The notes beneath the pieces are model-generated. The model saw nothing but the letters and a program-made list of their open reading frames with translations, searched no databases and was not told the origin of the DNA. Of a stretch of 64,000 nt of DNA, positions 10,410 to 29,250 are shown piece by piece. A program made the translations under genes and the position numbers. The number at the start of each line of letters is the position of its first letter. Position 1 is the stretch's first letter. The DNA is from Novosphingobium sp. (lineage in GTDB: Bacteria; Pseudomonadota; Alphaproteobacteria; Sphingomonadales; Sphingomonadaceae), in the NCBI GenBank assembly GCA_024236215.1, contig JACKKX010000004.1, forward strand, positions 276,089 through 340,088, read 5' to 3'.

Positions 10410-11140
10410 GCGTCTCGGCGATCAGGGCGTCCGGGCTGGCGCTGATGGCAGGCGCAATGCTGCTTGCCTCCTGCAACGATGCGGCCCCCGCTGGCGAAGG
10501 CGAACCCGCCGGAACGCAGGCGGCGGCGACGACAGCCACCGCTGGAACCGGCACCGCGGTACCCCCCGCCGCCGCACCGGTGAACTGCGATAACTACGCC
10601 GATGGGCTCACTCCGCGCGATTGGGCAGTGGTCTATTACGCGATGACCGGTCTTACCCCTCCGCGCGAACAATGGGCGGATGAGGCCCTGGTCTCGATGG
10701 ATCGCTCGCTGGGAGCGGAAGAGGCGTGGAAGCGCGCCAATGCGCAGGTCGATGCGCAGTGGATTGCCATGCAGGGCACCCGCTGCATCAAGCTGCGAAC
10801 CAGCGCCAATCCGGGCGCGTATGATCCGGGTCTGGGCGGCATCCCGTTCGGTGCCTTTGCTCCCGATGCCTATTATCCGCTCGGCGAGAATACCACGCCG
10901 GTCAGCCTCACCTTCCGCAATGCGGGTGCCGCGCGGGTGTGGAAGATGTCGCCCGATCGCGCCGCCGCGCTGCGCGCCGACAGTTGGTGGAGCAGCGCCA
11001 GCCTGATCATCCGCGCCCGCCTCATCGCAGCCCGGCCAAGCGGGAATGGCGGGGCCATCGAAGCCGAAATCGTCAGCTTCGATCTCGAGCCGCCCGAATA
11101 CAGCCGCGCCGCGCGCGAAACCTTCACGGTGTCGCCATGA
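10406..11140 (+). CDS. Putative lipoprotein of unknown function
   Basis: A 244-residue protein whose ATG overlaps the previous stop. The signal peptide is followed by lipobox LLASC and an Ala/Thr/Gly-rich linker to about residue 55. The mature domain has few motifs (NCDNYADGLTPRDWAVVYYAMTG, then PDAYYPLGENTTPVSLTFRNAG) and ends PEYSRAARETFTVSP. No relation to a known family is evident. It lies in the middle of the operon, and its stop overlaps the start of the next gene (ATGA). Confidence 0.7.
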   Translation: MSVSAIRASGLALMAGAMLLASCNDAAPAGEGEPAGTQAAATTATAGTGTAVPPAAAPVNCDNYADGLTPRDWAVVYYAMTGLTPPREQWADEALVSMDRSLGAEEAWKRANAQVDAQWIAMQGTRCIKLRTSANPGAYDPGLGGIPFGAFAPDAYYPLGENTTPVSLTFRNAGAARVWKMSPDRAAALRADSWWSSASLIIRARLIAARPSGNGGAIEAEIVSFDLEPPEYSRAARETFTVSP

Positions 11141-12012
11141 GCCGGGCAAAGTTCGCGATGCTTGCGATCGGCGCGGCCTTGCTCACCGGCGCAGCCTCGG
11201 GCAGCAAGCCCATCGAGCTGCTGGGCGTTCCCATGGGCGCAGACCTTACCGCCACGGAGGCGATTCTGGCCGCGCGTGGCTATGCGCGGCAGGGGCGGCC
11301 AAACTATTGCGACAACGGCCGGTTCTGCGAGTGGCCCATCACGATCGAAAACCTTCCCGGAACCCGGTTTGTCAGCGCGGTGCATGGCTGGCGCGAGCAG
11401 CCTGACCATGAGGAGAACTTCAACTTCCACATGACCGCGCCGCCCAACGAGACGCGGGTCTGGGCCGCGGGGCTGGAACAGCGGTTCGGCAAATGGTTTG
11501 CACCCAGCCCTGCCGCACCGCTTGCGTCGGATGTCCTCGCCGAGATCCGCGCGCGATATGGCCCTTCGACGTATGAATCCGGCGATCTTGTGAACCCATC
11601 CAGCAATGGTTCGACCCTGTCGATGCGTTGGGTGTGGGACAGCAACGGCAGCCTCTATCGCTATCCCGATGTCGCGCGAAAGCAATGGCCCAAGGGCTTG
11701 CTCGCATCGCGGGACAACTGCGTGACAGCCTTTGCCAAGGCGGCAGTTCCGCCCGGGAACGGATCGGGCGGCGGCGGCAGCAATGCGGCGGCGATCAGGC
11801 CGGAACCGTTCCTGCTGGCGCGGCAAGGCAATTGCGCGCTGATGATGGAAGCGGAACTCTCGCAGACCCGTGGCAAGCTCTACCGGCTTTACATCCGGGT
11901 GGTCGATTTCAAGGCGGGGCACGACGCCCTGTTCCACACCACGCGGCTCGTCACCGCCGAGCGCGGCAAGGCAGACGCGCAGCGATCTCGCGAAAACCGG
12001 CCGGATTTCTGA
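11137..12012 (+). CDS. Exported protein of unknown function, related in layout to the lipoprotein at 9486
   Basis: A 291-residue protein starting at the ATG that overlaps the preceding stop. The N-terminal signal peptide (MSRAKFAMLAIGAALLTGAAS) has no lipobox. IELLGVPMGADLTATEAILAARGYA and later LAEIRARYGPSTYESG parallel the LGVALE..A and L..KYGKPS segments of the 9486 product, suggesting a shared fold repeated in the operon. Cys residues (NYCDNGRFCEWP, DNCV, GNCALMM) and a Gly-rich loop (GNGSGGGGSN) are present. Function unknown. Confidence 0.7.
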   Translation: MSRAKFAMLAIGAALLTGAASGSKPIELLGVPMGADLTATEAILAARGYARQGRPNYCDNGRFCEWPITIENLPGTRFVSAVHGWREQPDHEENFNFHMTAPPNETRVWAAGLEQRFGKWFAPSPAAPLASDVLAEIRARYGPSTYESGDLVNPSSNGSTLSMRWVWDSNGSLYRYPDVARKQWPKGLLASRDNCVTAFAKAAVPPGNGSGGGGSNAAAIRPEPFLLARQGNCALMMEAELSQTRGKLYRLYIRVVDFKAGHDALFHTTRLVTAERGKADAQRSRENRPDF

Positions 12013-12044
12013 GCAACCGAACCGCAATCAAGGAGCCGCACGCG

Positions 12045-13496
12045 ATGATCCGTCACCCCGCCATGGCGATTTTGCCTTTCATCCTGCCTCTCGGGGTGCT
12101 GGCCCAGACGGCCCCTGTCGCCCCCTCCTGGCCAAAGGAGGTTCAGGCGATTTTTGAAGGATACAAGGCGCAATGCCAGCAGGCAGGCGGCAAGTTTGTG
12201 CCCGACCGCGCGAATTTCGCGCGTCAGATCGAGGTGACGGGCGACGGCAAGCCGGACTGGGTGGTCGAACACAGTGCCTTCGCTTGCAAGGTCACGCAGG
12301 CGCAAATGGACGCGGGGATCGTTCCGGACACCGGATCGGGATTCTGCGGCACGGCGGGTTGCCAGATTACCATTCTGGGCTCGGGCCGGAAGGGCCTTGC
12401 CCCGATTTTCGATGGAATCCTGCGCGATCTGACGCCCGTTGATCTTGGCGGCGGGCGCAAGGGAATCGAAACGACGGTTCACGGCACCGCGTGCGGCGGG
12501 GTGGGCGCGGAAGTCTGCATCGAAACCCTCGCATGGAACGGCAAGAAGTGGGCGCTCATCAAGCGCTACCGCTGGACCGACGCCGACTATGAAGCCGATC
12601 AGCGCCGACAGGCCGCGCTGCCCCCGATCGACGAGGTCCGCGGCCACGAAGCAAAATGGGCGTTCAGCGGGCGCGCAAGCAGCGCCGTCGCCGAAGTCAG
12701 CGGTCACCCTGAACTCGGACATCTGCGCCTGACATGCCGGGCAGGCGGCGGGATCGATCTGGCCATATCGCCGGACCGCACCATGGTACCAATGCCGCCC
12801 GCCGGACGACCTCTGCGGCTATGGTTCGAAGGTTCGATGGACGGAGCGGGTGCCGACCAGTCCGTGACACAGGTGGAGGGGCAGGCCGACTGGAGCGGCC
12901 CGCTCGCTCCGGAATTGGAAAGCTTGCTCGGGGGCCGCGATGACGGACTCACTCTCCTCGTCAGCGGGGATGACGGGGCTGAGTGGCGCGAGCTGGCCTA
13001 TTTCTCGCTCGCGGGATCGACCAAGGCGTTGCGATCGCTGCAGGCGCAATGCCCGGCATCGGAACCATCCGTTGTCGCTGCGGCACCACCTGCCGGTGCT
13101 GCGAATGCACAACGCATCCCACTGGCGGCGGGCTACTATGCCTATGTCGAGGGTACATTCTCGACCTGCGCCAATCCGGTGATCACACCGTGGTACTTCG
13201 ATGGCACGCGCTTCTGGGAGGAAACTGACGTCACCGACCCGAAGCACGAATACTCGAGCCAGGCCGTCTCGTGGGAGATGGCCGCCCGTGACCGCTTCCG
13301 CATTTCCTATCGTAGCCGCGATGAGGACGGCCGATGGAGTCCGGGCGTCTCAACCAACGAATACGTCATCACCGGCCCGCAATCGTTCATATTTGTGGGC
13401 GTAGTTGGCAGCTCCATGCGAGCAAGCGAGAAGCACCAGCTTTGCCCTGTGGCGCAATTGCCCGCTAAATCGCGTTGGTACAAGGCGGGCAAGTGA
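12045..13496 (+). CDS. Exported protein of unknown function, last gene of the operon
   Basis: A 483-residue secreted protein starting at 12045 behind AAGGAG. A signal peptide runs to about LAQTAP. The first half has an FG-GAP/EF-hand-like repeat phrase (IEVTGDGKPDWVVE) and Cys-containing turns (GFCGTAGCQITIL, GTACGGVGAEVC). The second half (from about residue 205) looks like a separate beta-rich domain, and the final domain (about 360-483) carries further aromatic strands. It follows the previous gene by 32 bases. No catalytic motif seen. Confidence 0.7.
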   Translation: MIRHPAMAILPFILPLGVLAQTAPVAPSWPKEVQAIFEGYKAQCQQAGGKFVPDRANFARQIEVTGDGKPDWVVEHSAFACKVTQAQMDAGIVPDTGSGFCGTAGCQITILGSGRKGLAPIFDGILRDLTPVDLGGGRKGIETTVHGTACGGVGAEVCIETLAWNGKKWALIKRYRWTDADYEADQRRQAALPPIDEVRGHEAKWAFSGRASSAVAEVSGHPELGHLRLTCRAGGGIDLAISPDRTMVPMPPAGRPLRLWFEGSMDGAGADQSVTQVEGQADWSGPLAPELESLLGGRDDGLTLLVSGDDGAEWRELAYFSLAGSTKALRSLQAQCPASEPSVVAAAPPAGAANAQRIPLAAGYYAYVEGTFSTCANPVITPWYFDGTRFWEETDVTDPKHEYSSQAVSWEMAARDRFRISYRSRDEDGRWSPGVSTNEYVITGPQSFIFVGVVGSSMRASEKHQLCPVAQLPAKSRWYKAGK

Positions 13497-13914
13497 GGCA
13501 AGATCCGCGCAAGCGACGTTATCGATGAGGAGCTTGGCATGTGCAGCCGGTATAAGCTGCCATAAGCCTGTTCTTAGCTACGGAAGATCGTACCAAAATC
13601 GCAAAGATGCGGATGTAATGAAAGAAGTATCATGAACGACTATCTCCCAAACGGCCTCGGTGGACGCCCATCGCATGCAAGCGGTAATTTCGAGTATGTT
13701 GGCGCGTAGCCGGATGTTAGTATCTGTCCGGCCTCGATTAGCAACGCCATAGCTGCAGGCCGGTATGGCAGTTCGCGGACCAGATCCATTTAAGCTTTGC
13801 ACGCTTTGACCGCGCCCTCCTATTCCCTGGTTTTTCCAACCCCGTCTCGCCGATTGTAGTGGCATGCCCTCCTTAGATCCCCTACGTCCCCCCGCGTCTG
13901 ACCGCCTTCTCAAT
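13497..13914. other. Gene-poor stretch before the IS110 remnant
   Basis: About 420 bases downstream of the exported-protein operon. Only short frames without ribosome sites occur, and I recognise no RNA gene, terminator or repeat. Its lower GC content compared with the flanking operon suggests eroded mobile DNA, like the remnant that follows. Confidence 0.4.
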
Positions 13915-14464
13915 TTACGCCGAGACCGCGGCCGGAGCTGTGTAATCTTCCTTCGTGGTCGCTAGTGCAAAGACCAGACGTGCAATCTTGCTGACGAGCG
14001 CGCCCGAGAAGAGCATGCTCGGGGTATACGTCAGCGTGCGCGCAAGCCATAAACCACGTTGAGCTTCGCGCGTGGTGGCCTACAGCACCACCGAGCTTGC
14101 ACCAATGATGAGCGGGCGCCTGAACATACGGTCGCCCATCTTGGTTATGCTGCCGAGCCCTTGGTTGCCGCCAGTTGAGTGCTGACGCGATACAAGGAAA
14201 GCCATGCGGCGGAGTCACGGCCCTTGCAGATTGGCTCGATTGGAAGTGCCAGCGCAACGAACGCGGTTGCTGCGATCGGACCACTGCCCGGGATTATCAT
14301 CAACCGCCGGGTCGCCTCATCCTCTTTGGCCCGCGGCGCGATCTCCCGGTCAAGCTTGGCGATCTGCACATCGAGCTCAGCTACATGCCTGAACACCCGC
14401 CGCGCTACCTCAGCAAGCTGCCAGCCATATCCCCATCTTCCAGCAAGTCAGCCAACGTCGTCAT
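13915..14464 (-). pseudogene. IS110-family transposase remnant
   Basis: Minus-strand frames joined across a frameshift read DREIAPRAKEDEATRRLMIIPGSGP..AT, then KGRDSAAWLSLYR, then (shifted) TGGNQGLGSITKMGDRMFRR, LIIGASSVVL-stop-ATTREAQRG, LARTLTYTPSMLFSGALVSKIA and ALATTKEDYTAPAAVSA-stop. These are the C-terminal Transposase_20 landmarks of IS110/IS1111 elements (IPGIGP, RDFAAWLGL, KMGDR..RRLL). At least one frameshift near 14165 and two stops kill the gene, and the N-terminal DEDD half is absent. Confidence 0.8.
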
Positions 14465-14893
14465 GGACACTGTGCCTCGCGGCGCCATCCTTCCTTTGAG
14501 GAGTTAGGGACTCCGGCAATCTGGTGGCGATCCAGATTGCCGCGACAAGTTTCTTCTGATTGAGCGACTTTTCGCCCAAACGCGAGGGATTAGAACGCAC
14601 AACCAGATCGAAGGCGCATTATCCGACATCGTTCAAGCCTTGTGCGATTGTCTGGTCATAGGACAAAGTAACTGACAAATATCACGAACAATTCGATGGC
14701 AATTGCGCGATCATCTACAAAAATATCATAATTCAAAAGCAATATAGGCGTCAGCGAACGTAGTGCATCGCTCACCGGACACTTTGCAGGCGCCAGAGGT
14801 CAGACCCCCCTGCCCTCCGCAAATCCGGCTTGCCCGCGCTCTCATTAAGGTGGTACGCTTTATTTTCTCACACAGGGGCCTCATCCGTTACAC
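14465..14893. other. Gene-poor, comparatively AT-rich stretch before the resolvase gene
   Basis: About 430 bases. Part of it (14640-14770) is clearly AT-richer than the rest of the window. No credible gene is visible. It must hold the resolvase promoter and may hold the resolution site, but I could not define subsites by eye. Confidence 0.4.
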
Positions 14894-15505
14894 ATGACCG
14901 ACACTCTCATCGGATATGCCCGCTGCTCGACCGACAAGCAGGACCTCACTGCCCAGCGCCGCGCGCTCATCGAGCTTGGGGTGCCCGAGGACCGCATCTA
15001 CACCGACCACGGACTGACCGGCCGCAACCGCGATCGTCCCGGCCTCGCCCAGGCTCTGGCTGCGGTCCGCGCGGGCGAGACATTGGTCGTACCCAAGCTG
15101 GATCGCCTCGCCCGATCGGTGCCCGACGCCCGCGCGATCGCCGATGAGCTGGAGAAGCGCGGCGTGAGCCTCGCACTGGGCAAGCAGGTCTACGACCCCA
15201 ACGATCCAATAGGCCGGATGTTCTTCAACATCCTCGCCACCTTCGCCGAGTTCGAGAGCGACCTCATCCGCCTGCGCACCCGCGAGGGCATGAAGATCGC
15301 CCGGGACAAGGGCAAGCTCCGCGGCAAGCCGCCCAAGCTGTCCGACCTCCAGCAGCGCGAGCTCCTCAAGATGCACGCCACCGGGGAATACTCGATCAGT
15401 GACCTTGGGAAGCTGTTCAAGGTTTCTCGGCCGACTGTCTATCGGACGATCCGGCGCGGGGAGAGCGTGGCGACCGTTGAGGGGCCCCAAAATGAAGCCG
15501 ACTGA
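14894..15505 (+). CDS. Serine recombinase, resolvase/invertase family
   Basis: Small serine recombinase of 203 residues. The N-terminal catalytic domain has YARCSTDKQDLTAQRRAL with the nucleophilic Ser (about S12), then DHGLTGRNRDRPGL, LVVPKLDRLARSVPDA, the EFESDLIRLRTREGM E-helix and a C-terminal helix-turn-helix (YSISDLGKLFKVSRPTVYRTI). Length and layout match Tn3-type resolvases and Hin/Gin invertases. It probably resolves cointegrates or plasmid multimers. The large-serine-integrase zinc and coiled-coil domains are absent, so it is unlikely to integrate the island. It stands at the left end of the candidate defence genes. Confidence 0.95.
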   Translation: MTDTLIGYARCSTDKQDLTAQRRALIELGVPEDRIYTDHGLTGRNRDRPGLAQALAAVRAGETLVVPKLDRLARSVPDARAIADELEKRGVSLALGKQVYDPNDPIGRMFFNILATFAEFESDLIRLRTREGMKIARDKGKLRGKPPKLSDLQQRELLKMHATGEYSISDLGKLFKVSRPTVYRTIRRGESVATVEGPQNEAD

Positions 15506-15609
15506 ATGCAGATAATGCAGCCATATGCACTCGGCTGCGATAGATTAGCCTGCGCGTTCGTATGGGGATCGGTCCCGAGGTCGACACTGCTGCTGACAAA
15601 GGAAGCCTT

Positions 15610-16350
15610 ATGGAGAATTCGATTGCCTTCGAGATCGCTCAACGAGCACTCGATGGAAAGTCGAAGATACCCGTTTACCAGCGACGGAATGAAGAGATCA
15701 TTCGAAGGGAACTCAGCCTCCTCTTTCAATTATCAGCAAGAGTTGGGCGTGATCTGTTCCCGTGTAAGTGCGAACTTGAAATAGAATATCAGAGAGAATT
15801 TCAAGAGCCTGAGACGCGCCAGATCACAGCTGAGAGCGTTTTTATGTTTTCCCGCCAGGCATATCTGGAGGCATTTTGCCACTACCGGCAGAAAAGACGC
15901 ACTTTCAAATTGGATCGAATGTTGAGCACTCGAGTTGTAGGGGAGAGCAAATATGTAAGCTATCCGCTCACCGTTCTCGAGGTTAGTGACTTTTTCGTTC
16001 ATCCCAAGACTTGGGGAGATTACCGCAGACCCTGTTCGATCTTGGTTCGAAAGATGATGGATGTTTCCGTTCCTAAAGCTGAGCGATTTCGTTTCATCTT
16101 CGAATTTGCGGCACGAAGCCTGAGCAGGGGTGTCTGGGCAGATTCCTTCACCGACGGCAAGGCGGCGGGGGTGGCTTTTCTGGCTCTGAACACGGATGTT
16201 ATAAACTTCAACTGGCAGGCTGAAGTCGGTCGGATTAGGGGTGGTCGCTTCGATCAGGCTGCATTCACCGAGACGCTGAAATCAATTGACCATTTCGGCT
16301 TGCGAGGTCGCTTCCGTCCCATAAACGGGGCTGATCCAAGTTCAGTATGA
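15610..16350 (+). CDS. WYL-like domain protein of unknown function beside a restriction system
   Basis: The start is placed at 15610 (MENSIAFEIAQR), 5 bases after AAAGGAAG, giving 246 residues. Residues about 55-110 fit a WYL-type pattern: CELEIEY, RQITAESVF, AYLEAFCHYRQKRRTFKLDRM, comparable to the usual 'R.i.P....WYL.AYC...R.FRLDRI' (with Ala for Trp). WYL proteins often sense nucleic-acid ligands and regulate phage-defence genes. No winged helix precedes the domain here, so DNA binding is not shown. The C-terminal 130 residues are not recognised. Codon use is less GC-biased than in the surrounding genes, suggesting acquisition. It is in the same orientation as the methyltransferase, 81 bases upstream of it. 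Confidence 0.65.
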   Translation: MENSIAFEIAQRALDGKSKIPVYQRRNEEIIRRELSLLFQLSARVGRDLFPCKCELEIEYQREFQEPETRQITAESVFMFSRQAYLEAFCHYRQKRRTFKLDRMLSTRVVGESKYVSYPLTVLEVSDFFVHPKTWGDYRRPCSILVRKMMDVSVPKAERFRFIFEFAARSLSRGVWADSFTDGKAAGVAFLALNTDVINFNWQAEVGRIRGGRFDQAAFTETLKSIDHFGLRGRFRPINGADPSSV

Positions 16351-16431
16351 CGAGGCCTGATTACGCGCCTACCCCTTACCTGCTCGAGCGCTCATCCGAC
16401 ATTCGTTGCCTGCCGTTGGTGCCTGTGCTTT

Positions 16432-19400
16432 ATGCTACGCCGCATGCTCGAAGCCGATCAAATTGAAAGCTTTATAGCCGAATGGCGCGGCACCGGCGGC
16501 AGCGAACTCGCAAACACCCAGTCCTTCATCAACGGGCTGGCCCGGCTCCTCGGCGTCGATCCCCCGCGCGGCGCCAAGGCTGACGACACCGCCAACGATT
16601 ACGTCTTCGAACGCCGCGTCTTTCAGGACAATGGCGACGGCACCGAAAGCTTCGGCCGGATCGACTGCTACAAGCGCAGCTGCTTCATCCTTGAAGCCAA
16701 GCAAGGCAGCGAGGCTGACCGGGCCGCAGCGGACAAGGGCGAGGATGATCTCGACATCTTCGGCCAGACGGCAAAAGCCCGCGTCGCCCGCGGCACCGCC
16801 CGGCGCGGCACACCCGGATGGGCCAAGGCGATGGTGCAGGCCAAGGGCCAGGCCGAACGCTACGCCAAGGCGCTGCCCATCGATCATGGCTGGCCGCCGT
16901 TCCTGCTCGTCGCCGACATCGGCTATTGCATCGAGGTCTATGCCGACTTCACCGGCACCGGCAAAGCCTACGCCCAGTTCCCCGACCGGGCGCGGTACCG
17001 GATCATGCTTGAGGACCTGCGCGACGAAGATGTGCGTGACCGCCTGCGCGCCATCTGGACCGATCCCAAGAGCCTCGATCCCACCGCCCGCGCCGCCCGT
17101 GTTACCCGCGACATTGCCGATCTGCTCGCCACCGTCGCCCGCCGGCTAGAAAAGCGTGGCTATGATGCCGAGACCACCAGCGGCTTCCTCATGCGCGTGC
17201 TGTTCACGATGTTCGCCGAGGACAGCAAGCTGATCCCCGAGGGCAGCTTCACCCAGCTCCTCAAGAACCAGCGCGCCCACCCGGAGCATCTCGAACACCA
17301 GCTTTCCGCGCTGTGGGCAGCAATGGACAAGGGCGAGTTCTCCCCTGCGCTCGGAGTGCCGCTTCGGAAGTTCAACGGCTACCTCTTCAAGGAGCGCACC
17401 GCGCTGCCCCTCGATGCCGAGGAGCTCGAGGTGCTGATTCAGGCCGCTGAGCATGTTTGGACCGAGGTCGAACCTGCGATCTTCGGCACCCTGCTCGAAC
17501 GCGCGCTCAACCCCAAGGAGCGGGCCAAGCTCGGCGCGCATTACACCCCCCGCGCCTATGTCGAGCGGCTGATCGGCCCCACCATCATGGAACCGCTGCG
17601 CGCCGATTGGGACGGGGTGCGCGGCGCGGCTGCCACCCTGATCGAAGAGGGCAAGGCGGGCGAGGCCAAGGCCTTTGTCGAGGCGTTCCATTCCCGGCTC
17701 GCCCAGACCAGGGTGCTCGATCCCGCCTGCGGCACCGGCAACTTCCTCTATGTCGCCATGGCGCGTATGAAGGAGCTGGAGGGCGAGGTGCTCGATCTGC
17801 TGGTCGAACTCGGTGACGACCAGTATGTCGCCGAGCTCACCGGGCACACCATCACGCCCGAAAACTTCCTCGGTATCGAGATCAACCCGCGCGCCGCGGC
17901 GATTGCGCAGCTGGTGCTGTGGATCGGCTACCTGCAATGGCATTTCCGGGTGAACGGCGCGGATCGCACCCCGCCCGAGCCGATCCTGCGCGACGTCAAG
18001 ACCATCGAAAACCGCGATGCCCTGATCGAGTGGGACGAGAAGGTTGCGGAGCTGGACGAGGCTGGAAACCCGGTCACCCGCTGGGACGGCGAAACGATGA
18101 AGGAGCACCCCGTCACCGGCAAGCTGGTGCCCGACGAAACGGCACAGGTTAGCGTATTCCGCTATGTCAAACCGCGCGCGACGAAGTGGCCAAAGGCGGA
18201 TTTCATTGTCGGCAACCCGCCGTTCATTGGCGGCAAGGATGTGCGCGACCGTCTGGGTGATGGCTATTTCAAGGCGCTATTCGCTACCACCGACGTGCCC
18301 GAGAGCGCTGATTTCGTCATGCATTGGTGGGACAAGGCAGCAACCGCCGTGCGCAAGTCAGGCACGCGCCGGTTCGGCTTCGTCACCACCAATTCGATTA
18401 CGCAGGTGTTTAGCCGCCGGGTGATTGCCAAGCATCTGGATGCCAAGGACCGGGTGAGCCTGCTGTTCGCTATCCCGAACCACCCCTGGGTGGACGAGAA
18501 GGATGGAGCCGCCGTGCGCATCGCCATGACGGTCGCCGCGCCGGGCAAGGCGGCGGGCTATCACTGGAATGTTGCCGACGAAAGCGGCGCGCCCGATCAT
18601 CTCGTTTACACCGAGAGGGTCGGCCAGATCAGTTCCGACCTGAGGATCGGGGCTGATGTGACTTCCACAGTCGCTCTCAGAGCTAATGAAAAACTGGCGT
18701 CGCGCGGCGTTCAATTGATGGGCGATGGATTCATCTTGGCACCGGAAGAGGCTGCCAGCCATGCGAAGGTTCGAATCCTCCCGCCCCAGCCATCCGCGCT
18801 ACCTGACTGCCCCTCCCCGAATAGGATTCGAACTGACGGCCAAGAATCTGCTGTAATCTTTGACTATCGAAATGGCCGTGACCTCGCCTCACGCCCTCGC
18901 GGTGTGAAGGTGATTGACCTCTATGGGATGAGCGAAGCCGAGGTGCGTGAGCGGCATCCAACGGTGTACCAACATGTGCTGGCGACCGTAAAACCCCATC
19001 GCGACCAGAACAACCGCGCCAGCTATCGAGACAACTGGTGGTTGTTTGGCGAGCAGCGTTCAGAGCTGCGTAAAGCTCTTCGTGGGGTAAGCAGGTACAT
19101 CGCCACCATCGAAACGGCCAAGCACCGGGTTTTCCAGTTTTTGCCGATGTCGATCCTGCCCGACAACAAACTGGCCTGTATTGCCCTCGACGACGCATAT
19201 GCATTGGGTGTCCTATCAAGCCGCCTACATGTGGCGTGGGCGATAGCGAGCGGCGGGCGGCTCGGCATGGGCGATGACCCTGTGTACGTGAAATCGCGCT
19301 GCTTCGACCCTTTCCCATTCCCCGCTGACGTTCCCGAACCGCTGAAAGACAAGATCCGGGCCGAGGCCGAGGCGCTCGATGCGCTGCGCAAGCGGGTGCT

Positions 19401-19956
19401 CGAAAGCCATGAGGACCTGACCCTCACCAAGCTTTACAACGTGCTCGAAGCGCTGCGGGAGGGCCGCGCGCTGACCGATGCCGAGCGCGACATGCATGAT
19501 CGCGGGCTCGTGACCCTGATCCGCCAGCACCACGACGCCATCGATGCGCTGGTCGCCGAAGCTTATGGCTGGCCCGCTGACCTATCCGACGAGGAAATCC
19601 TCACACGCCTCGTCGCCCTCAACAAGGAGCGCGCCGCCGAGGAAGCCCGCGGCCTGATCCGCTGGCTGCGTCCCGAATATCAGGCACCGGACTACAAGGC
19701 CCCCGTCACCCAGGCGCTCGACCTTGGCGAAACAGCCGCCGCGCTGCCCGACAACGTCATCCCCTGGCCCGGCTCGCTCCCCGAACAGGTCAGCGCCGTC
19801 CAATCCATCCTCACCGCCGCCGCCACGCCCCTAGCGCCGCAGGATGTCGCCCGAGCCTTCAAAGGCAAACGCGCCGCCACCGTCCGCCCGGTGCTGGACG
19901 CGCTCGCCGGCATCGGCATGGCAAGGCGGTTGAAGGACGGACGATACGCGGCGTGA
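16432..19956 (+). CDS. Type IIG/IIL restriction-methyltransferase (MmeI-like), single polypeptide
   Basis: A 1,174-residue protein that probably both methylates adenine and cuts DNA. The N-terminus (FIAEWRGTGGSELANTQSFINGLARLLGV) is the MmeI N-domain pattern. A PD-(D/E)XK-like nuclease signature follows: GRID (D78) and ILEAK (E88, K90). A helical linker leads to the gamma-class N6-adenine methyltransferase with SAM motif I DPACGTGNFLY (about D430) and catalytic NPPF (about N595). The region from about residue 730 to 950 is the expected target-recognition domain and is visibly less GC-rich. A winged-helix-like C-terminus (DVARAFKGKRAATVRPVL) ends the protein. It is longer than MmeI (about 920). 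No separate restriction or specificity subunit is nearby. The first of two Met codons, 16432 or 16444, may be the start. Confidence 0.88.
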   Translation: MLRRMLEADQIESFIAEWRGTGGSELANTQSFINGLARLLGVDPPRGAKADDTANDYVFERRVFQDNGDGTESFGRIDCYKRSCFILEAKQGSEADRAAADKGEDDLDIFGQTAKARVARGTARRGTPGWAKAMVQAKGQAERYAKALPIDHGWPPFLLVADIGYCIEVYADFTGTGKAYAQFPDRARYRIMLEDLRDEDVRDRLRAIWTDPKSLDPTARAARVTRDIADLLATVARRLEKRGYDAETTSGFLMRVLFTMFAEDSKLIPEGSFTQLLKNQRAHPEHLEHQLSALWAAMDKGEFSPALGVPLRKFNGYLFKERTALPLDAEELEVLIQAAEHVWTEVEPAIFGTLLERALNPKERAKLGAHYTPRAYVERLIGPTIMEPLRADWDGVRGAAATLIEEGKAGEAKAFVEAFHSRLAQTRVLDPACGTGNFLYVAMARMKELEGEVLDLLVELGDDQYVAELTGHTITPENFLGIEINPRAAAIAQLVLWIGYLQWHFRVNGADRTPPEPILRDVKTIENRDALIEWDEKVAELDEAGNPVTRWDGETMKEHPVTGKLVPDETAQVSVFRYVKPRATKWPKADFIVGNPPFIGGKDVRDRLGDGYFKALFATTDVPESADFVMHWWDKAATAVRKSGTRRFGFVTTNSITQVFSRRVIAKHLDAKDRVSLLFAIPNHPWVDEKDGAAVRIAMTVAAPGKAAGYHWNVADESGAPDHLVYTERVGQISSDLRIGADVTSTVALRANEKLASRGVQLMGDGFILAPEEAASHAKVRILPPQPSALPDCPSPNRIRTDGQESAVIFDYRNGRDLASRPRGVKVIDLYGMSEAEVRERHPTVYQHVLATVKPHRDQNNRASYRDNWWLFGEQRSELRKALRGVSRYIATIETAKHRVFQFLPMSILPDNKLACIALDDAYALGVLSSRLHVAWAIASGGRLGMGDDPVYVKSRCFDPFPFPADVPEPLKDKIRAEAEALDALRKRVLESHEDLTLTKLYNVLEALREGRALTDAERDMHDRGLVTLIRQHHDAIDALVAEAYGWPADLSDEEILTRLVALNKERAAEEARGLIRWLRPEYQAPDYKAPVTQALDLGETAAALPDNVIPWPGSLPEQVSAVQSILTAAATPLAPQDVARAFKGKRAATVRPVLDALAGIGMARRLKDGRYAA

Positions 19957-19959
19957 GCT

Positions 19960-21336
19960 ATGGCGAATAGGAAGGATCAACTCCACGCAGACGTTTCGTT
20001 TATCTTTGAGGAATGCGTGCGCCTGAACCAATTGGTGAAGGAAGGGAAATTCAGTTCGCTCCCCCGTGAAGACGCGTTTTGCGACCTCCCTCACCCCACC
20101 TACAATTGGCCGAACGGGAAAATGCTCTGCAGCCGCGCAGGATATGACCGGTTAGGGTCTCTTACGCGCACAGCATTAGCGCGCGCCAACTTGGAGCGGC
20201 GCGTGTCCCTTTCATCGGCGCGGAAGGTGCTCGCCGAAATTTTGGTTCGAAAGTTCCTGCGCGAAAAGCGTCCGATCGACATCATGAATGTCGATCGGGC
20301 TTTGTCGGAAACGGCGAGGCGATGCGGCAGAAGCTGCGAGGATATCACACACTTTATCCCTTGCCACCTCATGGCACCACAGAGCCCCGCCTCATTTGAG
20401 ATCGGACCGATCAGGTTCCTGAACCAGTCAACATTCCGGAGCGCCCTCGCAGCATCAATCCGATCAAACCGTCGGCTTGGCCACCAGATGACGCGGCGCT
20501 CGATCTCGCAGGCCATAGAATACTACCGCAATTTCGGATGGGTCGCCGAAGTGAAGGTGATCGGCTGTGACAAGAAGATCTCAGAGATGACAGCTGCCAG
20601 AGCTGCCTTGGCGGCACTTAACTGTCTTCATGTCCTGATCGGAGCGGGGCACTCGACAGAAATGCAGGTGGGTGGCCCGGGATTGGCGAATGATCGCAGA
20701 GCGGGCTTCAGCGTCGAAGCTGATGGCAGCCTATCCTACATGGTTACCTACGGTGGGCAAGGCAACGTCGGCTTCGATGACGATTGGATGGACCTCTTCT
20801 CCGGAGCGGACGCCCAGGAAATCATCGCCAACCTTGGCATCGCCCTCGAACAAGCTGTCAATCCGGCATTGCAGCGCCCGCTCAGCGAAAGGCTACTCGA
20901 TGCAATGCAGTGGTATGGTGAAGCCGTGAGAGAACCGTCCCAAGGCGCCAAGGCAGTGAAATATGTAACCGCCCTTGAACGGATGGTGATGACGGACGAG
21001 AAGGATGACATCGCAAGCCTCGTGTCATCGCGAGTTGCTGCGCTCTGCCTGGACGAACCGACTGTTGAATGCCGGGATCGGTGGCAAAACGAAGTCCGAA
21101 GAGCGTATGATATACGTTCGAGGCTCGTGCACGGTTCAGTTTCGCCCACATCAGTGATTGTTTTCGACGGCGTTCGGCTTGGATCGCACCTCGCTCGCAG
21201 TACTTTGCTCAGCGCAGCCAAGCTGCTCGGTGAAAGGGGACTGCGTGACGAGAAAGCTGCCAATCGGGATCTGGCGCGCTATTACGATCAAATTGTTCAT
21301 CACGTTGACGCGGTAATAATGCAACACGCTGCCTAG
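19960..21336 (+). CDS. HEPN-domain (Apea-like) protein coupled to the restriction-methyltransferase
   Basis: A 458-residue protein beginning 3 bases after the methyltransferase stop, so almost certainly co-transcribed with it. Residues about 325-400 (AVKYVTALERMVM ... RRAYDIRSRLVHG) match the Apea-like HEPN pattern, and R386-SRLV-H391 is a well-formed R-x4-H ribonuclease motif. HEPN proteins are RNases in toxin-antitoxin and abortive-infection systems. The N-terminal 300 residues are not recognised. I infer a defence accessory or back-up role from position, not from a known pairing. Codon use is less biased than in the neighbouring chromosome-type genes. Confidence 0.7.
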   Translation: MANRKDQLHADVSFIFEECVRLNQLVKEGKFSSLPREDAFCDLPHPTYNWPNGKMLCSRAGYDRLGSLTRTALARANLERRVSLSSARKVLAEILVRKFLREKRPIDIMNVDRALSETARRCGRSCEDITHFIPCHLMAPQSPASFEIGPIRFLNQSTFRSALAASIRSNRRLGHQMTRRSISQAIEYYRNFGWVAEVKVIGCDKKISEMTAARAALAALNCLHVLIGAGHSTEMQVGGPGLANDRRAGFSVEADGSLSYMVTYGGQGNVGFDDDWMDLFSGADAQEIIANLGIALEQAVNPALQRPLSERLLDAMQWYGEAVREPSQGAKAVKYVTALERMVMTDEKDDIASLVSSRVAALCLDEPTVECRDRWQNEVRRAYDIRSRLVHGSVSPTSVIVFDGVRLGSHLARSTLLSAAKLLGERGLRDEKAANRDLARYYDQIVHHVDAVIMQHAA

Positions 21337-21564
21337 GAGTCGGGTGCTACAACGCGGGCGAACCAAGCTTCCTCATGCGCGGACCAGGTACATTGAACCG
21401 CATTCACATGTTGCTGCCGGGACGTGATACTTTCGGCAAGCGCGCTTTGACCGCCCTTACATGCCTAGAACATTTATCCAGTTCTAGCGAAATAGCTAGA
21501 CAGGCATAAGGCTTTTGGAACGCGCCCGTGGATTGTGAAATGCGACCCCGCCTCCCAACCGAAA

Positions 21565-22089
21565 TCACTGAAACGGCGCCAGCTGCGCGATCGACCTGTT
21601 CTGCTCGGCCCGTGCTGCTTGTCCCCACAGCTGCTTTCGATAGGCCCGCTCCCCATGGAGCTGCCGCACCTCGCGGAACATCATGGCAAGCTGGAATACG
21701 GTCATCGGCGCGCGCCAATATCGGTTTGAGAGCCGCCCCTCGATCTCAGCGAGCAAGTGTGGCCGTTCCCGGTCGGTTGCAGCGACCAAAGCTGCGGCGA
21801 TATCGCGGCCGCTGGCAATGCTGTGCATGCGCGCGACAAGTGGGAAGATGACTGCACCGATCGCGGTCAGGCTGATCGCAGCAACACCGGGGATGAACAC
21901 CTCCCTGCGTTCGGGCGTGACGCCGAGGACGAACGCGGCGAGGGTTGCGACCCCGAATGCAATGATGGCGGCCAGAGGAACTGAGACCGCGATCGGGTGG
22001 CGGCTTGCGAAGAACCGGGCGCGGCTGATGAGGCCGGGGTGCGGCAATCCAGCGATAGGCTGGGCATTTGCGGTATGTTTGTCGGTCAT
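21565..22089 (-). CDS. Small membrane protein of the mobile-element backbone, unknown function
   Basis: A 174-residue protein with two hydrophobic segments (about 33-55 and 65-85) and a soluble Arg/Glu-rich C-terminal half ending in a Gln/Ala-rich tail. Reading direction and position place it at the far end of the parA-His-rich-protein series of the plasmid-like element. Nothing identifies its role. The upstream gap 21337-21564 holds no gene I can support. Confidence 0.55.
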   Translation of the reverse strand: MTDKHTANAQPIAGLPHPGLISRARFFASRHPIAVSVPLAAIIAFGVATLAAFVLGVTPERREVFIPGVAAISLTAIGAVIFPLVARMHSIASGRDIAAALVAATDRERPHLLAEIEGRLSNRYWRAPMTVFQLAMMFREVRQLHGERAYRKQLWGQAARAEQNRSIAQLAPFQ

Positions 22090-22155
22090 GGTGATTTCCT
22101 TGTTTGAAGCACGAGGGAGGCGGTGCTGTTCATGCGCACTGGGGAGCGGCGGGCA

Positions 22156-22479
22156 TCAATCGCTGCGCGTGTGATCGAACCCGCCGGCGCCAGTGCCCGA
22201 CCAGTGATCGAAGCTGCTGCCGGTCGACCCGAAATCATGGTGGTGATGGTCATGACGGTGATGATGGTCGTGGTGGCTGTGGCTGTGGTGAGTGTGGTGG
22301 TCGTCCCGGCGGTCCAGATTCACGCCGAAGGGGTTGCCACCGACATCGACACCGCCGATGCCGGGGGTGATCATGGGAAGGCCGGTGGCGGGGTTGATTC
22401 TGGGCCCCTCGTCGATGGGGGCGCATGGCGGGGTGCTCGAGCTGGTGAACAGGCCGGTCAACCATTGGAACAGTCGCAT
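22156..22479 (-). CDS. Small His-rich protein of the mobile-element backbone
   Basis: A 107-residue protein with a short amphipathic N-terminus (MRLFQWLTGLF), the phrase INPATGLPMI..IGGVDVGGNPFG and a tail with about 20 histidines in short clusters separated by Asp and Ser. The INPATGLPM segment occurs in small proteins in many proteobacteria, from memory. The His tail could bind metals such as Ni or Zn, but that is inference. It is read in the same direction as the partition genes upstream. Confidence 0.6.
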   Translation of the reverse strand: MRLFQWLTGLFTSSSTPPCAPIDEGPRINPATGLPMITPGIGGVDVGGNPFGVNLDRRDDHHTHHSHSHHDHHHRHDHHHHDFGSTGSSFDHWSGTGAGGFDHTRSD

Positions 22480-22530
22480 GGGTATCTCCTGTCATTGAAG
22501 GGCTGTCGGTGCACGGCCCTTGGGGTGGTG

Positions 22531-22575
22531 CCCACATGTTCACACGTTCACATGGGCATAGTCTCACATTCTCAC
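22531..22575. repeat. TTCACA/CACATG repeat cluster downstream of the partition genes
   Basis: CCCACATGTTCACACGTTCACATGGG carries two TTCACA units 9 bases apart flanked by CCCACATG and CATGGG, followed by two further CTCAC units. The words recur in the palindromes at 22949 and 23611, so this is probably a third, more diverged member of the same set of partition-protein sites. Confidence 0.5.
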
Positions 22576-22627
22576 TTCAACTCATACCCCTCAAAATCCT
22601 GCCTTTTCTCTTGTTCCCTGGGATCGA

Positions 22628-22894
22628 CTAGCGGCCAATGGGGCTCTCGCCGTACTTGCGCAGGACGTCGTCGAAGGCTTCGGCCATCAGATCCTGAAGG
22701 CTGAGGCCATGGCGGCGCGCGCAGGTGTGGAGCGCCAGCGACAGCTCGGGTGCGAAGTAGCCGGAGATTGCCTTGCGGCCGACGCGGCTCGGCGGGGTGG
22801 GAACCTGAGCGACGACAGGTGCGGATCCGGTTGGCGCAGGTGCCGCTCCGTCATCCTTGGGTTTCCGATCGGCAAGGTTAGCGAAGCGGTTCAT
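22628..22894 (-). CDS. Ribbon-helix-helix partner of ParA (small ParB/ParG-type centromere-binding protein)
   Basis: An 88-residue protein with a Pro/Ala-rich flexible N-terminus and a C-terminal ribbon-helix-helix-like fold ([44 protein letters not shown]). It overlaps the ParA stop by ATGA, the usual layout of type Ib partition cassettes where the small RHH protein binds the centromere and represses the operon. Candidate binding palindromes flank and lie inside parA. Confidence 0.75.
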
Positions 22895-23592
22895 GCGGAT
22901 TTCCTCTTGTGCGCCTGAGACTGTGAGCGTGTGGACATGTGGAGCTGTTCACATGCCCACATGTGCAGCTGTTCAATCTCGCCCGCTGCTTTGCCGTCGG
23001 GATCGAACTCGAACACGGTCTGCCCACCTGCAACGGCATGGCGATAGGCCGCGCGGTCCGGCAGGATGATGGGGCAGGTCTGGCCGCCGAACCCGGTCAC
23101 CAGTTCGCGGGCATCGGCATAGATGTGCGGGGCATGGGGCGGTCCGGCAGTGAACACGACGAAGGCAGGGCGCGCGAGCAGCTCGACCAAGCGGATGGTC
23201 GTGCGCATCGCCGCAAGGTCGAAGGCGCTGGGGCGGCACGGGATCAGCACCACATCGGCGCATTCGGCTGCTTTGCTGGCCGCAAAATCGGCGTGTGGCG
23301 GCGTGTCGATCACGATCAGCTCGGCGCCCTGTGCGGCGGCGACCGCGATCTTCGCCGGGATGCGCAGCGGGGCACTGTCGATCACCTCCGGCGGCGCGCC
23401 TTGCCGCCACTCAGCCCATTGCGAGGCGCTGGCCTGCGGGTCGGTGTCGATCAGCAGGCTGATGTGCCCTGCACGGGCGGCCGCGGCAGCGAGATGGATG
23501 GCCAGCGTGGTCTTCCCGGCACCGCCCTTCTGACTGATGATCGCGACTGTCCGCGCTGATGTATGGGTGTGGGGATGTGAGGGCGTGGTCAT
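22891..23592 (-). CDS. parA: ParA-family partition ATPase
   Basis: A 233-residue Walker-type ATPase that segregates plasmid or element copies. The deviant Walker A motif KGGAGKTT (residues 22-29) includes the signature lysine, followed by [11 protein letters not shown] (Walker A') and LIVIDTPPH (Walker B). There is no N-terminal helix-turn-helix, so it is the short type Ib form. The ATG at 23590-23592 follows ATGAGGA. The C-terminus contains an in-phase duplication ([15 protein letters not shown]) created by DNA repeats that match a palindrome upstream of the gene. Confidence 0.93.
22949..22966. repeat. Partition-site-like palindrome inside the parA 3' end
   Basis: TCACATGCCCACATGTG followed by C is, with one mismatch at the final base, the reverse complement of the perfect palindrome at 23611-23628. 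It lies in the last codons of parA. A shared binding site for the RHH protein is the simplest reading. Confidence 0.6.
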
Positions 23593-23610
23593 GTGCGGTG
23601 GTCCTCATGT

Positions 23611-23628
23611 TCACATGTGGGCATGTGA
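23611..23628. repeat. Partition-site-like palindrome upstream of parA
   Basis: TCACATG-TGGG-CATGTGA is a perfect 7-base inverted repeat 18 bases before the parA start, surrounded by degenerate GTG-rich copies (23560-23650). Its position allows both centromere function and autorepression of parA. Confidence 0.65.
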
Positions 23629-23674
23629 GGCTGTGCGGGTGTGCGGACGTAGGGATCCGGGGGCATCATCGCGG

Positions 23675-26641
23675 TCACATCCCGAAGTCGTAATCGCGGT
23701 CGCGCGACAGATCTGGCCCGCTGGATCCGCGCCCCGGTTCGCTGCGCTCGGGTGTCCGCTCCAAGGCCAGTTCACGGTCCTTCTTCTCCGTCGCGGAGGG
23801 CAGAGCGTGGCCATTTTCCCGGGCGGTCTCGATCGCGCTGCTTTTCTCGCCGGTTCGACTCTCCACCTGCCGCTCGACGCGCGAGGGATTGTCGGTCACC
23901 AGCGTCGCGTTCTCCGCGATCCGGGTCACGGCAACCAGGAACGAGGCCGAGGTGTTGAGCATCCGCTCGCGCTCTGACATCATGATGATGCCGTCTTTGG
24001 CCGTCATTCCTTGCGCGACGTGAACGTTGATGGCGTAGGCAAGGTCGAGCCGCTCGAGCATGGGATCGCCGCGTGGCAGATCGTGGAGCTGGCCGTCGCT
24101 GGCCTTCACGGTAATCGTGTCACCGTCGATACGGGCAACATGGGCAATATCGCCGTTGAGCAAGCCGCGTTCCCCATCCTTGGCGGTCCAGCGGATGCGG
24201 TCACCCTCGTGCAGGTCGATCTGCTTGGGCTCGAAGATGGTGACCGCGTCGTGCTTCAGGTTGCGCGGCAAGCGGTCGGGATCGAAGCGGCGGATCTCGC
24301 CGTTGGGCATGGTAAGGTCGACCTTGCCGTCCCTGACTCCGATAACGGTTCCGCGCTCGCCACGCGCAAAGCCCTGTTTGGTCAGGTTAGTCTCGAAGGC
24401 GACGACACGCCCCTCCTGATAGCCCTTCAACTGCCGCGCACCCTCGCGGGTGACGGTGACCCGGTCGAGCACCTCGAGTCTGATCCCCCGCGCGCTGATC
24501 TGGCCGCGATCAATCAGCGAAGCCTGCGCGGCAGCATTGCCCGCGCTGCGCATCGCGCGCCCCGCGGCCAGAAGGATGGTGTTGTCGCGCTGCTCCTTGG
24601 GCAGGTCGGCCCACATATCGGCGGCAATGCCTGCGATCTTGCCCGGCGCAACTTCGATGGTCGCAGGTTTCAGCGCGGCAAAGGCCTGGGCGACATCGCC
24701 CTGTTCGAGCGCGCGGTTGATGGCCTGCATCTGCGGGGTCTGCGCGCGCAGGTTCTCGGTGATCTGGCTCTGCCTGAGATCATGCTGCTGCAATTGCGCA
24801 AAGGGCTTGCCCGCCTCGATGGCCGGCAGTTGTTTCACATCGCCGGCGAGCACCAGCTTACCCACGTCCATCTGGTTGGCGAGGGTGATGAGCCGCGCGA
24901 GCCGATCCGTGCCGATCTGACTGGCCTCATCCACCATCACCAGCGCACCGGACAGCTCCGCCCTTGCCGTTGCCACCTTATCCGCGCTGGCACTGCCATC
25001 AATGACACGCCCATACCGTGCCAAAAACGCATCCACGGTCGATGCTGGACTGGCCGTTTTCTCCCCAAACTCCCGCGCGATCCGACCCACGTGGGACAGC
25101 GCCACCACCTGCCGCCCCTCCTCACGCGCAATGGCCGCAACCGGAGCCAGCGCCGCCGACTTCCCCACACCCGCGCCGCCCTGAACCAGATGCACGCGGT
25201 CTTTGGAGGTAAGGATCGCGACGCCCGCCTGCTCCTGCCCGGGATTGAGGCGGCGAAGGCCGATGGCCCGCGCCTGTTCCTGCAGTCGCGCAACGATGCC
25301 GTCCTTGTCTGCGATGGGTTGAACGCTGTCCTTGCCCGCCTGCGCCAGGGCAATGACCTTGGTCTCCATGGCCAGCGCCTGTTCGGTGGTGAGCATCCGG
25401 TCGCGATCCGCCGGACAGCTGCCGATCAGCAAGCCGCGCTGCTGCAACAGATCGATCCGGGCTTCGATCATGGTGACGGTGACCGGCCCCTGCCGTTCAA
25501 GCGCTGTCCGGATCAGGTCGTTGCGGGAGAAGGCTGCCTCGCGTTCGCCCAGCTCCCGCGCTGCCGAGGCAACTGCCTGTGCCGCAGCAAAGGCCTTGGG
25601 CTCGAGCCGCCCGAGCCGCTCTGGCACCAGCGGGTCAGAATCACGCGGGGTCAGTCCCATGGCACCGGCAATCGCCATGCCGCGCTCGCCGATCCCGCGA
25701 ATGCCGTCGACGACGCGCGACCAGACCGTCTGTTCACCTGCCGCGCGTGCCATGGCATTCTCGATCAGCCGGGCCGGATCGAAGCCGATGGCGCGGGCGG
25801 TCTCTTTCCAAGCGGCGACCTGCCGCGCCGCATCGGGCTCCAGTTCCTTCCCGCGCCGTGTCGATAGCGCCGCCAATTCGCGCTCGCGTGCACTGCCCCG
25901 ATCCCCCTTGGCCAGCTCGGCGAGAATTTCGGCGCGTCGGGTTGAGAACGCTTCGACCGCTTCCCGCGTCACACCTTTGATCTCGAAAGCACCGTCGATG
26001 GCATTGCGGGCAGGGACGGTTTCGTAGCCCAAGGCTTCGACGCGGTTGCGCAGTTCGGCATTGTGGACTGCCGACAACACGTGCTGCGCGCGGTAGAGCT
26101 CGTCATTGCGCACCGCATGCCATTTGCCGTCCGAGGCCATGGTCGCGTTGGCAACGACGGCGTGGATGTGCAGTTGCGGTTCGCCGTTCCTGTTCACGTC
26201 ATGCAGGAAGGTCGCGGCGATGAGGTTGCCGGTGCGTTCGGGCACCTGTCTCCCTAGCGCTGCATCCCAGACCCGCGCTTCGACAACGTTCTTCTCCGCC
26301 CATCGCAGGGTTGCCGCGACGGAATCCTTCAAGGCTTCGACCAGACGCTTGTCGCCGCCGAGCATCGCCACCAGCGAAACGGACTTCGACGCCGAGAAGG
26401 TGAGATCAACGCCGGGGCGGTGCACGCCGTCCTTCCCGGCAATCACTGACCCATCGGGAAGCCTGCCCTCGAGCACGGCGACGAAGGCCGCTTCCTCGAC
26501 CTTGCCTGACAGACCTAGTACCTCGGCGCCCTCACCGAACCACGAGCTTGCATCCTGTGTCTGGTCGGCGGTGTAGTAGTTGTCGGCCGAGTAATACTCC
26601 GCCGCCGATGAGGCTGAGCCGACCGAGGCGAGCGTAATCAT
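23675..26641 (-). CDS. MobF-family conjugative relaxase-helicase (TrwC/TraA type)
   Basis: A 988-residue protein that nicks the transfer origin and unwinds DNA for conjugation. The relaxase domain has N-terminal tyrosines (YYSADNYYTAD, Y16/17 and Y22/23), TFSASKSVS and the three-His metal site H147, H158 and H160 (LHDVNR, HIHAVV). The helicase domain follows: Walker A GGAGVGKS (about residue 488), VMVDEASQIG, ITENLRAQ and the late motif AYAINVHVAQGMTAKDG ... VAVTRI. The C-terminus is Arg/Glu/Ser-rich. It overlaps the gene upstream by ATGA. No type IV secretion genes are in the window, so the element may be mobilisable rather than self-transmissible. Confidence 0.95.
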   Translation of the reverse strand: MITLASVGSASSAAEYYSADNYYTADQTQDASSWFGEGAEVLGLSGKVEEAAFVAVLEGRLPDGSVIAGKDGVHRPGVDLTFSASKSVSLVAMLGGDKRLVEALKDSVAATLRWAEKNVVEARVWDAALGRQVPERTGNLIAATFLHDVNRNGEPQLHIHAVVANATMASDGKWHAVRNDELYRAQHVLSAVHNAELRNRVEALGYETVPARNAIDGAFEIKGVTREAVEAFSTRRAEILAELAKGDRGSARERELAALSTRRGKELEPDAARQVAAWKETARAIGFDPARLIENAMARAAGEQTVWSRVVDGIRGIGERGMAIAGAMGLTPRDSDPLVPERLGRLEPKAFAAAQAVASAARELGEREAAFSRNDLIRTALERQGPVTVTMIEARIDLLQQRGLLIGSCPADRDRMLTTEQALAMETKVIALAQAGKDSVQPIADKDGIVARLQEQARAIGLRRLNPGQEQAGVAILTSKDRVHLVQGGAGVGKSAALAPVAAIAREEGRQVVALSHVGRIAREFGEKTASPASTVDAFLARYGRVIDGSASADKVATARAELSGALVMVDEASQIGTDRLARLITLANQMDVGKLVLAGDVKQLPAIEAGKPFAQLQQHDLRQSQITENLRAQTPQMQAINRALEQGDVAQAFAALKPATIEVAPGKIAGIAADMWADLPKEQRDNTILLAAGRAMRSAGNAAAQASLIDRGQISARGIRLEVLDRVTVTREGARQLKGYQEGRVVAFETNLTKQGFARGERGTVIGVRDGKVDLTMPNGEIRRFDPDRLPRNLKHDAVTIFEPKQIDLHEGDRIRWTAKDGERGLLNGDIAHVARIDGDTITVKASDGQLHDLPRGDPMLERLDLAYAINVHVAQGMTAKDGIIMMSERERMLNTSASFLVAVTRIAENATLVTDNPSRVERQVESRTGEKSSAIETARENGHALPSATEKKDRELALERTPERSEPGRGSSGPDLSRDRDYDFGM

Positions 26642-27420: not shown

Positions 27421-27747
27421 TGGAACCTCCTTTGATTTCAGAGGCAAGAGGCGACCGCCTAGAGATCAACCTGTTGAAATATGGCGGTTCTATAGACTGG
27501 CTATAGACCGATTGTGCTGCTGGGGCAGCTTTCGCGGCGCGATTATGAACCTGTCTAGAGCCTAGAATGCCGGATTTCTGCGGGTCTACGCCCGCCCAGA
27601 TCACACCGCCACGTAGCGTGGAGTGTGTAATTCTATTTTCCCCGCCGAGCCCTTGTGCCGTCCTGGTTTCCACCTGCCATATCGGACTGGATTTCCCGTT
27701 GAGACCGCCCCGGCAGGGGGCGCAACAGGCTGATAAGCGGCACCTGG
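27421..27747. promoter_or_regulatory. Intergenic region between repC and the mobilisation operon, with direct repeats
   Basis: A gene-free stretch of 327 bases that must hold the mobilisation operon promoter. At 27490-27510 there is a near-perfect direct repeat (CTATAGACTGG then CTATAGACCG), which may be a regulator site. No oriT could be identified by eye, though this is the expected place for one. Confidence 0.45.
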
Positions 27748-28962: not shown

Positions 28963-29011
28963 TTTGCACCTCCGGCAAGGTTTGCCCTTGCACCCGATTC
29001 TTCGGTCGCGT

Positions 29012-29082: not shown

Positions 29083-29172
29083 CGTAGGCGGTCTGGCGGC
29101 CTGCCTACCGGCTTCCCAACGCGGTAATTCCGACCAGACATGCGCGTTTCCGAGGGCCTCAAAGTGCCCGCT

Positions 29173-29203
29173 CGTACAAATCGCGTACAGTCAGCCCCGT
29201 ACA
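29173..29203. repeat. Three CGTACA repeats beside the attachment site
   Basis: CGTACA occurs at 29173, 29184 and 29198, spaced 11 and 14 bases, about 50 bases from the tRNA fragment. They could be recombinase arm sites or replication iterons. The motif is short, so the evidence is modest. Confidence 0.35.
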
Positions 29204-29250
29204 AAAGGCAAATTCTACAAAGAAAACATCTGACTATCTGATTTGGCTGG

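Follow-up and report, generated by a model that had tools for sequence, protein, structure and literature searches.

A type IIL restriction-modification enzyme and a HEPN protein as a candidate two-gene defence module in Novosphingobium

In the passages of their survey on restriction-modification (R-M) linkage, Anantharaman et al. (2013, PMC3710099) tie no fewer than 16 HEPN clades to R-M gene neighbourhoods, place ApeA inside R-M operons of epsilonproteobacteria and, with PrrC as the analogue, propose that the linked HEPN proteins are back-up toxins which the R-M system inhibits reversibly. HEPN back-up effectors are also described in BREX and related systems, in the relevant sections of a further paper (PMC12839542). 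As for the restriction enzymes, MmeI functions without a separate methyltransferase, and the sections of PMC4081073 devoted to this family mention no HEPN partner and treat changes of specificity in MmeI-family enzymes as well known. Searches of an open-access library found no description of a type IIL enzyme-HEPN pair, and the portions of a Thermus phage paper concerned with HEPN and type IIL genes (PMC11437467) describe no such pair.

The locus considered here lies in a stretch of 64,000 nucleotides from a Novosphingobium sp. genome (hereafter the window). The first-pass annotation had read it as a serine resolvase gene followed by WYL, MmeI-like and HEPN genes; this gene set stands, three of its members being named by Pfam. 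The features are listed below, where L085 and L086 are related loci in a Porphyrobacter and a Hyphomonadaceae MAG, respectively.

14894..15505, plus strand: serine resolvase (PF00239 and PF02796), a mobile-element gene, outside the module
15610..16350, plus strand: WYL-domain protein, 246 aa (PF13280), judged a bystander
16432..19956, plus strand: MmeI-like type IIL/IIG restriction-modification enzyme, 1174 aa (Pfam, PADLOC, motifs, PDB)
18229..19304, plus strand: exchanged target-recognition segment, approximately codons 600-957 of the enzyme, where blastn shows no similarity to L085
19954..19962, plus strand: enzyme/HEPN junction (stop codon, 3 nt, HEPN start codon), alike in L085 and L086
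19960..21336, plus strand: HEPN protein, 458 aa, with an N-terminal domain (1-303) and a C-terminal HEPN domain (304-429), from motif and predicted fold

The WYL gene runs in the same direction as the enzyme gene, 81 nt upstream of it, and the HEPN gene starts 3 nt after the enzyme stop codon, just as had been claimed. The HEPN gene would probably share a transcript with the enzyme gene and be translationally coupled to it. Promoter-like sites numbered 3 (1.8 expected) and terminator-like sites 2 (6.7 expected). The enzyme carries PF20464, PF20465, PF20473 and PF20466 in that order on a single chain, all above the Pfam cut-off; the PADLOC type IIG model PDLC03627 covers its residues 10-1174 (1539 bits), and MmeI (5hr4) is its sole PDB sequence match at E 1e-5 (E 6.6e-36). 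The PD-(D/E)XK nuclease motif (D78-x9-E88-A-K90) and the methylase motifs (DPACGTG at 430 and NPPF at 595) are intact, and the Pfam recognition domain lies at residues 840-964. As a type IIL enzyme on a single chain, the product of the first gene would both methylate its own recognition site and cleave DNA that lacks the methylation; one-strand adenine methylation and cleavage two turns away characterise this class. A second MmeI-like enzyme, with approximately 35-41% identity to the one studied, is encoded outside the window in the same genome (G000:C1:260400-263009).

In the HEPN protein the R-x4-H motif, already noted in the first-pass annotation, is indeed intact (R386-x4-H391), and both residues are invariant in 17/17 aligned rows. 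The predicted model has a mean pLDDT of 83.9, and HEPN structures are the top three aligned to its C-terminal fold, a ranking given by the VIA re-alignment only; in this model the C-terminal domain of the 458-aa protein is a HEPN helical fold, and the protein is a probable RNase. The protein itself matched no model in Pfam, NCBIfam or PADLOC, the Pfam search returning neither HEPN_Apea (PF18739) nor an ABC ATPase of the PrrC/RloC type, and 10 close-family and 10 distant relatives matched no HEPN model in Pfam. Profile searching against PDB was likewise of no use in naming the family, and at E 0.001 Foldseek matched the full model to nothing in PDB or among viral models, and residues 1-303 to nothing in PDB. 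With hhalign, the motif region alone of the family aligned to HEPN_Apea at a probability of 0.1%, the PF18739 side being a 3-row alignment from the order with one row below the cut-off. The N-terminal domain is kept in the ten rows of the family alignment A3, and the gene is under purifying selection (dN/dS of 0.25 versus L085 and 0.10 versus L086).

The first-pass annotation had proposed a three-gene cassette, with co-recurrence in other genomes as the check. The enzyme and HEPN genes do recur together, without the WYL gene. A scan of 84,980 species genomes with two peptide patterns, which detects only relatives holding one of them, gave nine HEPN relatives. The HEPN protein of L085 (92% identity) and that of L086 (82% identity) are each encoded directly downstream of the enzyme with the same 3-nt junction, and at L094 a distant HEPN relative with a GTG start lies 1 nt after a different MmeI-like enzyme, whose MmeI domains were confirmed. 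Since the tandems of L085 and L086 both come without a WYL relative, the pair recurs whereas the trio was not found again; the proposal is thus partly supported, in favour of a two-gene unit and not of a three-gene cassette, and the enzyme-HEPN pair appears to be a genuine, though rare, defence module.

Loci picked by enzyme similarity, on the other hand, weigh against even the pair: none of 38 (21 from the order, 15 plasmid loci and 2 viral contigs, taken with 4-6 kb on either side unless the record was too short) showed a HEPN relative by tblastn, and two HEPN profiles had no match in the first 36 of them either. Enzyme identity to the window at these loci is approximately 42-79%. An enzyme match is present in 71/296 genomes of the order, the own genome included, from which 21 regions were taken and all searched; 58 plasmid records have an enzyme match at E 1e-50, of which 15 were opened. 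Some of these loci carry broken or split enzyme genes (a 410-aa N-terminal match with a stop in L052; split genes in L050, L051 and L053), the sequence searched at plasmid locus L123 extends just 210 nt or so past the enzyme gene, and the viral loci L139 and L140, with identical match values, are probably one sequence, so that the independent complete cases are somewhat fewer than 38. L043 and L045 have four neighbouring genes in common, yet their adjoining MmeI-like enzymes differ (72% and 56% identity to the window).

The WYL protein (PF13280 at 36.2 bits, cut-off 21.8) showed no helix-turn-helix (HTH) domain in Pfam at E up to 1. Relatives of it were found neither at the 38 other enzyme-family loci (by tblastn) nor at L085, L086 and L094, the 10 kb flanks of L085 and L086 being covered. 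Two of 295 other genomes of the order have one: in G281 it and the enzyme relatives are on separate contigs, and in G155 an enzyme match is absent genome-wide. The absence of relatives from the enzyme loci and from the recurring pairs, together with DNA homology to L085 that begins at 16467, within the enzyme gene, places the WYL gene outside the unit, and it was rejected as a component of the module. The resolvase gene, too, is not within the long DNA blocks that link the window to L085 and to L086. A Marinobacter plasmid (L134) carries a gene between resolvase and enzyme that was considered as a possible WYL analogue; it has no Pfam match and no tblastn match to the WYL protein.

Comparison by blastn of window positions 10000-30000 with L085 gave two long blocks, 16467-18228 (91.8%) and 19305-21348 (92.8%), the three remaining matches being just 30-67 nt. 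Homology starts 35 nt into the enzyme gene (codon 12) and ends 12 nt past the HEPN stop codon, and approximately 1.08 kb between the two blocks is without blastn similarity. With L086 the long blocks are 16467-18266 (88.4%) and 19303-21340 (82.6%); an extra 452-nt match of 67% falls in the window relaxase gene. At the protein level, enzyme residues 101-500 are 98-100% and residues 1001-1174 are 94-100% identical to both L085 and L086, whereas the blocks 601-700, 701-800 and 801-900 fall to 41, 19 and 36% versus L085 and to 57, 26 and 37% versus L086, the blocks 501-600 and 901-1000 being intermediate (68-90%). L085 and L086 diverge from each other at the same blocks (41, 21 and 31%), which indicates three versions of one enzyme body with different recognition regions and the HEPN gene kept in all of them. 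The recognition segment has been exchanged while the HEPN gene was retained, and this exchange would alter the specificity of the enzyme; the retained HEPN gene alongside a specificity change is the new element here. Window blocks 601-700 and 801-900 resemble those of two enzymes without HEPN, L040 (83 and 70%) and L041 (91 and 67%), a likeness that may point to the source of the exchanged segments. The synonymous divergence of the two genes is unequal: dS between window and L086 is 0.49 for the N-terminal half of the enzyme and 1.14 for HEPN, and between window and L085 it is 0.33 and 0.18, so that the two genes do not have a common history; the pair is kept and its parts are reshuffled.

Regarding the surroundings, genes for a ParA-like protein, a TrwC relaxase and a replication protein C (Pfam) form a plasmid-like block on the minus strand at window positions 22891-28962, on a 340-kb contig and next to chromosomal genes, among them one that is serS-like by eye. 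A sequence immediately before this last gene, at 29245-29301, resembles by eye a tRNA 3' end (T arm, acceptor and CCA) and was not called by ARAGORN; it may be the attachment scar of the plasmid-like block, and no second exact copy of it was found in the genome. Upstream of the resolvase, at 13910-14400, broken ORFs have by eye the look of an IS110-type transposase. In L085 a TraG gene (Pfam) lies upstream of the module, and an Argonaute gene with a TIR-domain partner (PADLOC, 11422-14891) is convergent with it.

The close HEPN family comprises 15 loci including the window, and in 5 of them a recognised defence gene lies directly upstream: a type IIL enzyme in three of them (the window, L085, L086), the type I R-M genes hsdR-hsdM-hsdS (Pfam) in L087 (HEPN gene at 9992-11365), and the Mokosh genes MkoA and MkoB (PADLOC, 805 and 306 bits) in L092 (9983-11341). 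In L090 the relative follows two genes without a Pfam match, and in nine further loci (L060, L061, L088, L089, L091, L093, L111, L141 and L142) no defence gene was recognised directly upstream in the ORF lists, read mostly by eye. Two of these relatives come directly after thiC (L060, 5989-7380; L091, 429-1823) and one lies near it (L061, 5962-7362), thiC being named by eye; in these three sphingomonads thiC is a possible insertion hot spot. Among 24 loci opened for distant matches (L002-L004, L062-L064, L094-L105, L112-L116 and L143), a Burkholderia replicon (L113, 6914-8077) carries a relative 314 nt behind a nucleotidyltransferase-ThiF-Mov34 operon, an order that we take to be the CBASS layout; a WYL gene and a SAVED gene stand on the opposite strand. 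In L064 a type IIG-like methylase is encoded two genes downstream of the relative. The tree joins L094, L064 and the partnerless L097 in a supported separate clade, so that L094 would, on the simplest view, have come by its R-M link separately from the window; the same tree does not settle several forks within the close family. In the remaining 21 distant loci no such defence operon was recognised, mostly by eye, several being short matches that may not belong to the family; defence-like genes near distant relatives include SIR2 in L003, and Fic and abortive-infection genes in L002. L096 and L098 have HEPN-like genes (approximately 5900-7030) at comparable chromosomal positions, between two large genes that appear by eye to be mutS-like and glnD-like, which suggests a resident branch of the family.

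Counting the own genome, relatives are sparse: 6/296 genomes in the order, 4/119 in the genus, 14/385 in the class (broad profile) and 5/398 in the phylum (narrow profile), where several class and phylum matches are short and possibly not family members and the weak-match genomes G309 (class) and G758 (phylum) were left unopened. Viral contigs gave no match to the window HEPN protein and one match to alignment A3, outside any recognised defence operon. Additionally, a distant relative lies within the head-gene region of Acinetobacter phage vB_AbaSI_5 (L112, 4826-6199). Copies outside recognised defence operons, including those on the viral contig and the phage, argue for autonomy of the HEPN protein.

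Taken with the observed gene order, intact motifs, predicted HEPN-like fold and recurrence, these data favour, at a probability of about 0.5, a mobile two-gene defence module that leaves out the WYL and resolvase genes and in which the HEPN protein would be an autonomous RNase forming a second, abortive layer behind whatever DNA-directed system it accompanies. Its N-terminal domain (1-303) would sense an infection signal or keep the nuclease inactive; on release the HEPN domain would cut RNA and growth would stop. Partnerless copies, differing partners and the N-terminal domain kept in the A3 rows make an autonomous RNase the simplest reading, and because it is found on its own as well as downstream of unrelated systems, the HEPN protein is probably blind to the sequence specificity of the enzyme and would be retained while the recognition domain is exchanged. 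The main rival, which we consider somewhat unlikely, is a guard arrangement as in PrrC, where the conserved body of the enzyme would keep the HEPN protein inactive and a phage that blocks or swamps the enzyme would free it. This would fit with junction and enzyme body having been conserved: three loci have the tight 3-nt coupling although their enzymes differ, chiefly in the recognition region, so that a contact with the conserved body would survive, and both the relative behind the complete type I operon of L087 and the PrrC precedent, as presented in the R-M passages of PMC3710099, point the same way. However, many relatives are not part of R-M operons or follow Mokosh or CBASS-like genes, which implies that a specific enzyme partner is not required, and a guard sits poorly with the lack of an ABC ATPase match in the HEPN protein and with the unequal dS of the two genes. 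A specificity-blind guard, quite unlikely in our estimate, would have the HEPN RNase monitor the conserved type IIL body and not its target, and the same family would serve as an all-purpose suicide effector, attached likewise to operons of the type I R-M, Mokosh and CBASS-like kinds; if so, the host would be free to exchange recognition domains, with one and the same toxin monitoring the presence and function of the enzyme.

Functional linkage may also be absent. Two independent defence genes could have come to lie side by side in a defence island and travel together, and this explanation, unlikely as we judge it, draws on the 38/38 enzyme-picked loci without a HEPN relative, the differing dS, the rarity of the pair and the Argonaute gene with its TIR-domain partner adjoining the L085 module; it is opposed by the identical junction in three hosts, by long window-L085 blocks confined to the two genes and by the second pair, with a different MmeI-like enzyme, in L094. 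The co-directional position of the WYL gene 81 nt ahead of the enzyme gene is what a three-gene cassette, with the WYL protein as regulator or ligand sensor, has in its favour, and we hold it to be very improbable: no WYL relative occurs at the 38 enzyme loci or at L085, L086 and L094, the L085-shared DNA begins after the WYL gene, and the WYL protein has no HTH found. Extremely improbable, finally, is a HEPN protein that restrains self-damage by the enzyme instead of acting on phage. Some such control is plausible because MmeI-family enzymes, in the account given by the family sections of PMC4081073, methylate one strand, so that replication leaves unmethylated daughter sites; nevertheless, all 38 enzyme-picked loci manage without a HEPN relative, and HEPN occurs without the enzyme.

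A HEPN family without a curated model (458 aa in the window) gains a place among likely defence effectors, being found behind three to four different kinds of defence operon. Three natural versions of one type IIL enzyme, differing most in the recognition region and all with the same toxin, are also at hand, a set that suits testing whether a back-up toxin depends on the target of its restriction enzyme. Compared with known systems, the enzyme has the MmeI-family arrangement, in which one chain unites an N-terminal nuclease, a helical spacer, a methylase and a recognition domain, and differs in the HEPN gene directly downstream. The HEPN protein resembles PrrC with the type Ic system PrrI, in the outline given by the R-M passages of PMC3710099, in being a HEPN gene product tied to an R-M system with a second-line role, whereas it lacks an ABC ATPase domain match, has a type IIL partner and is not obligatorily linked to it. 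It is like ApeA and stand-alone HEPN proteins in its length (approximately 460 aa), its large N-terminal part, its C-terminal HEPN domain and its mostly partnerless occurrence, and unlike ApeA in having no HEPN_Apea match (a profile probability of 0.1%, against a 3-row alignment with one row below the cut-off). The R-M-linked HEPN clades of PMC3710099, which may or may not include this family, are described in a text where MmeI occurs 0 times. The concept of HEPN beside R-M has been known since 2013; what is new is a family without a curated model, a type IIL partner and an exchanged recognition segment.
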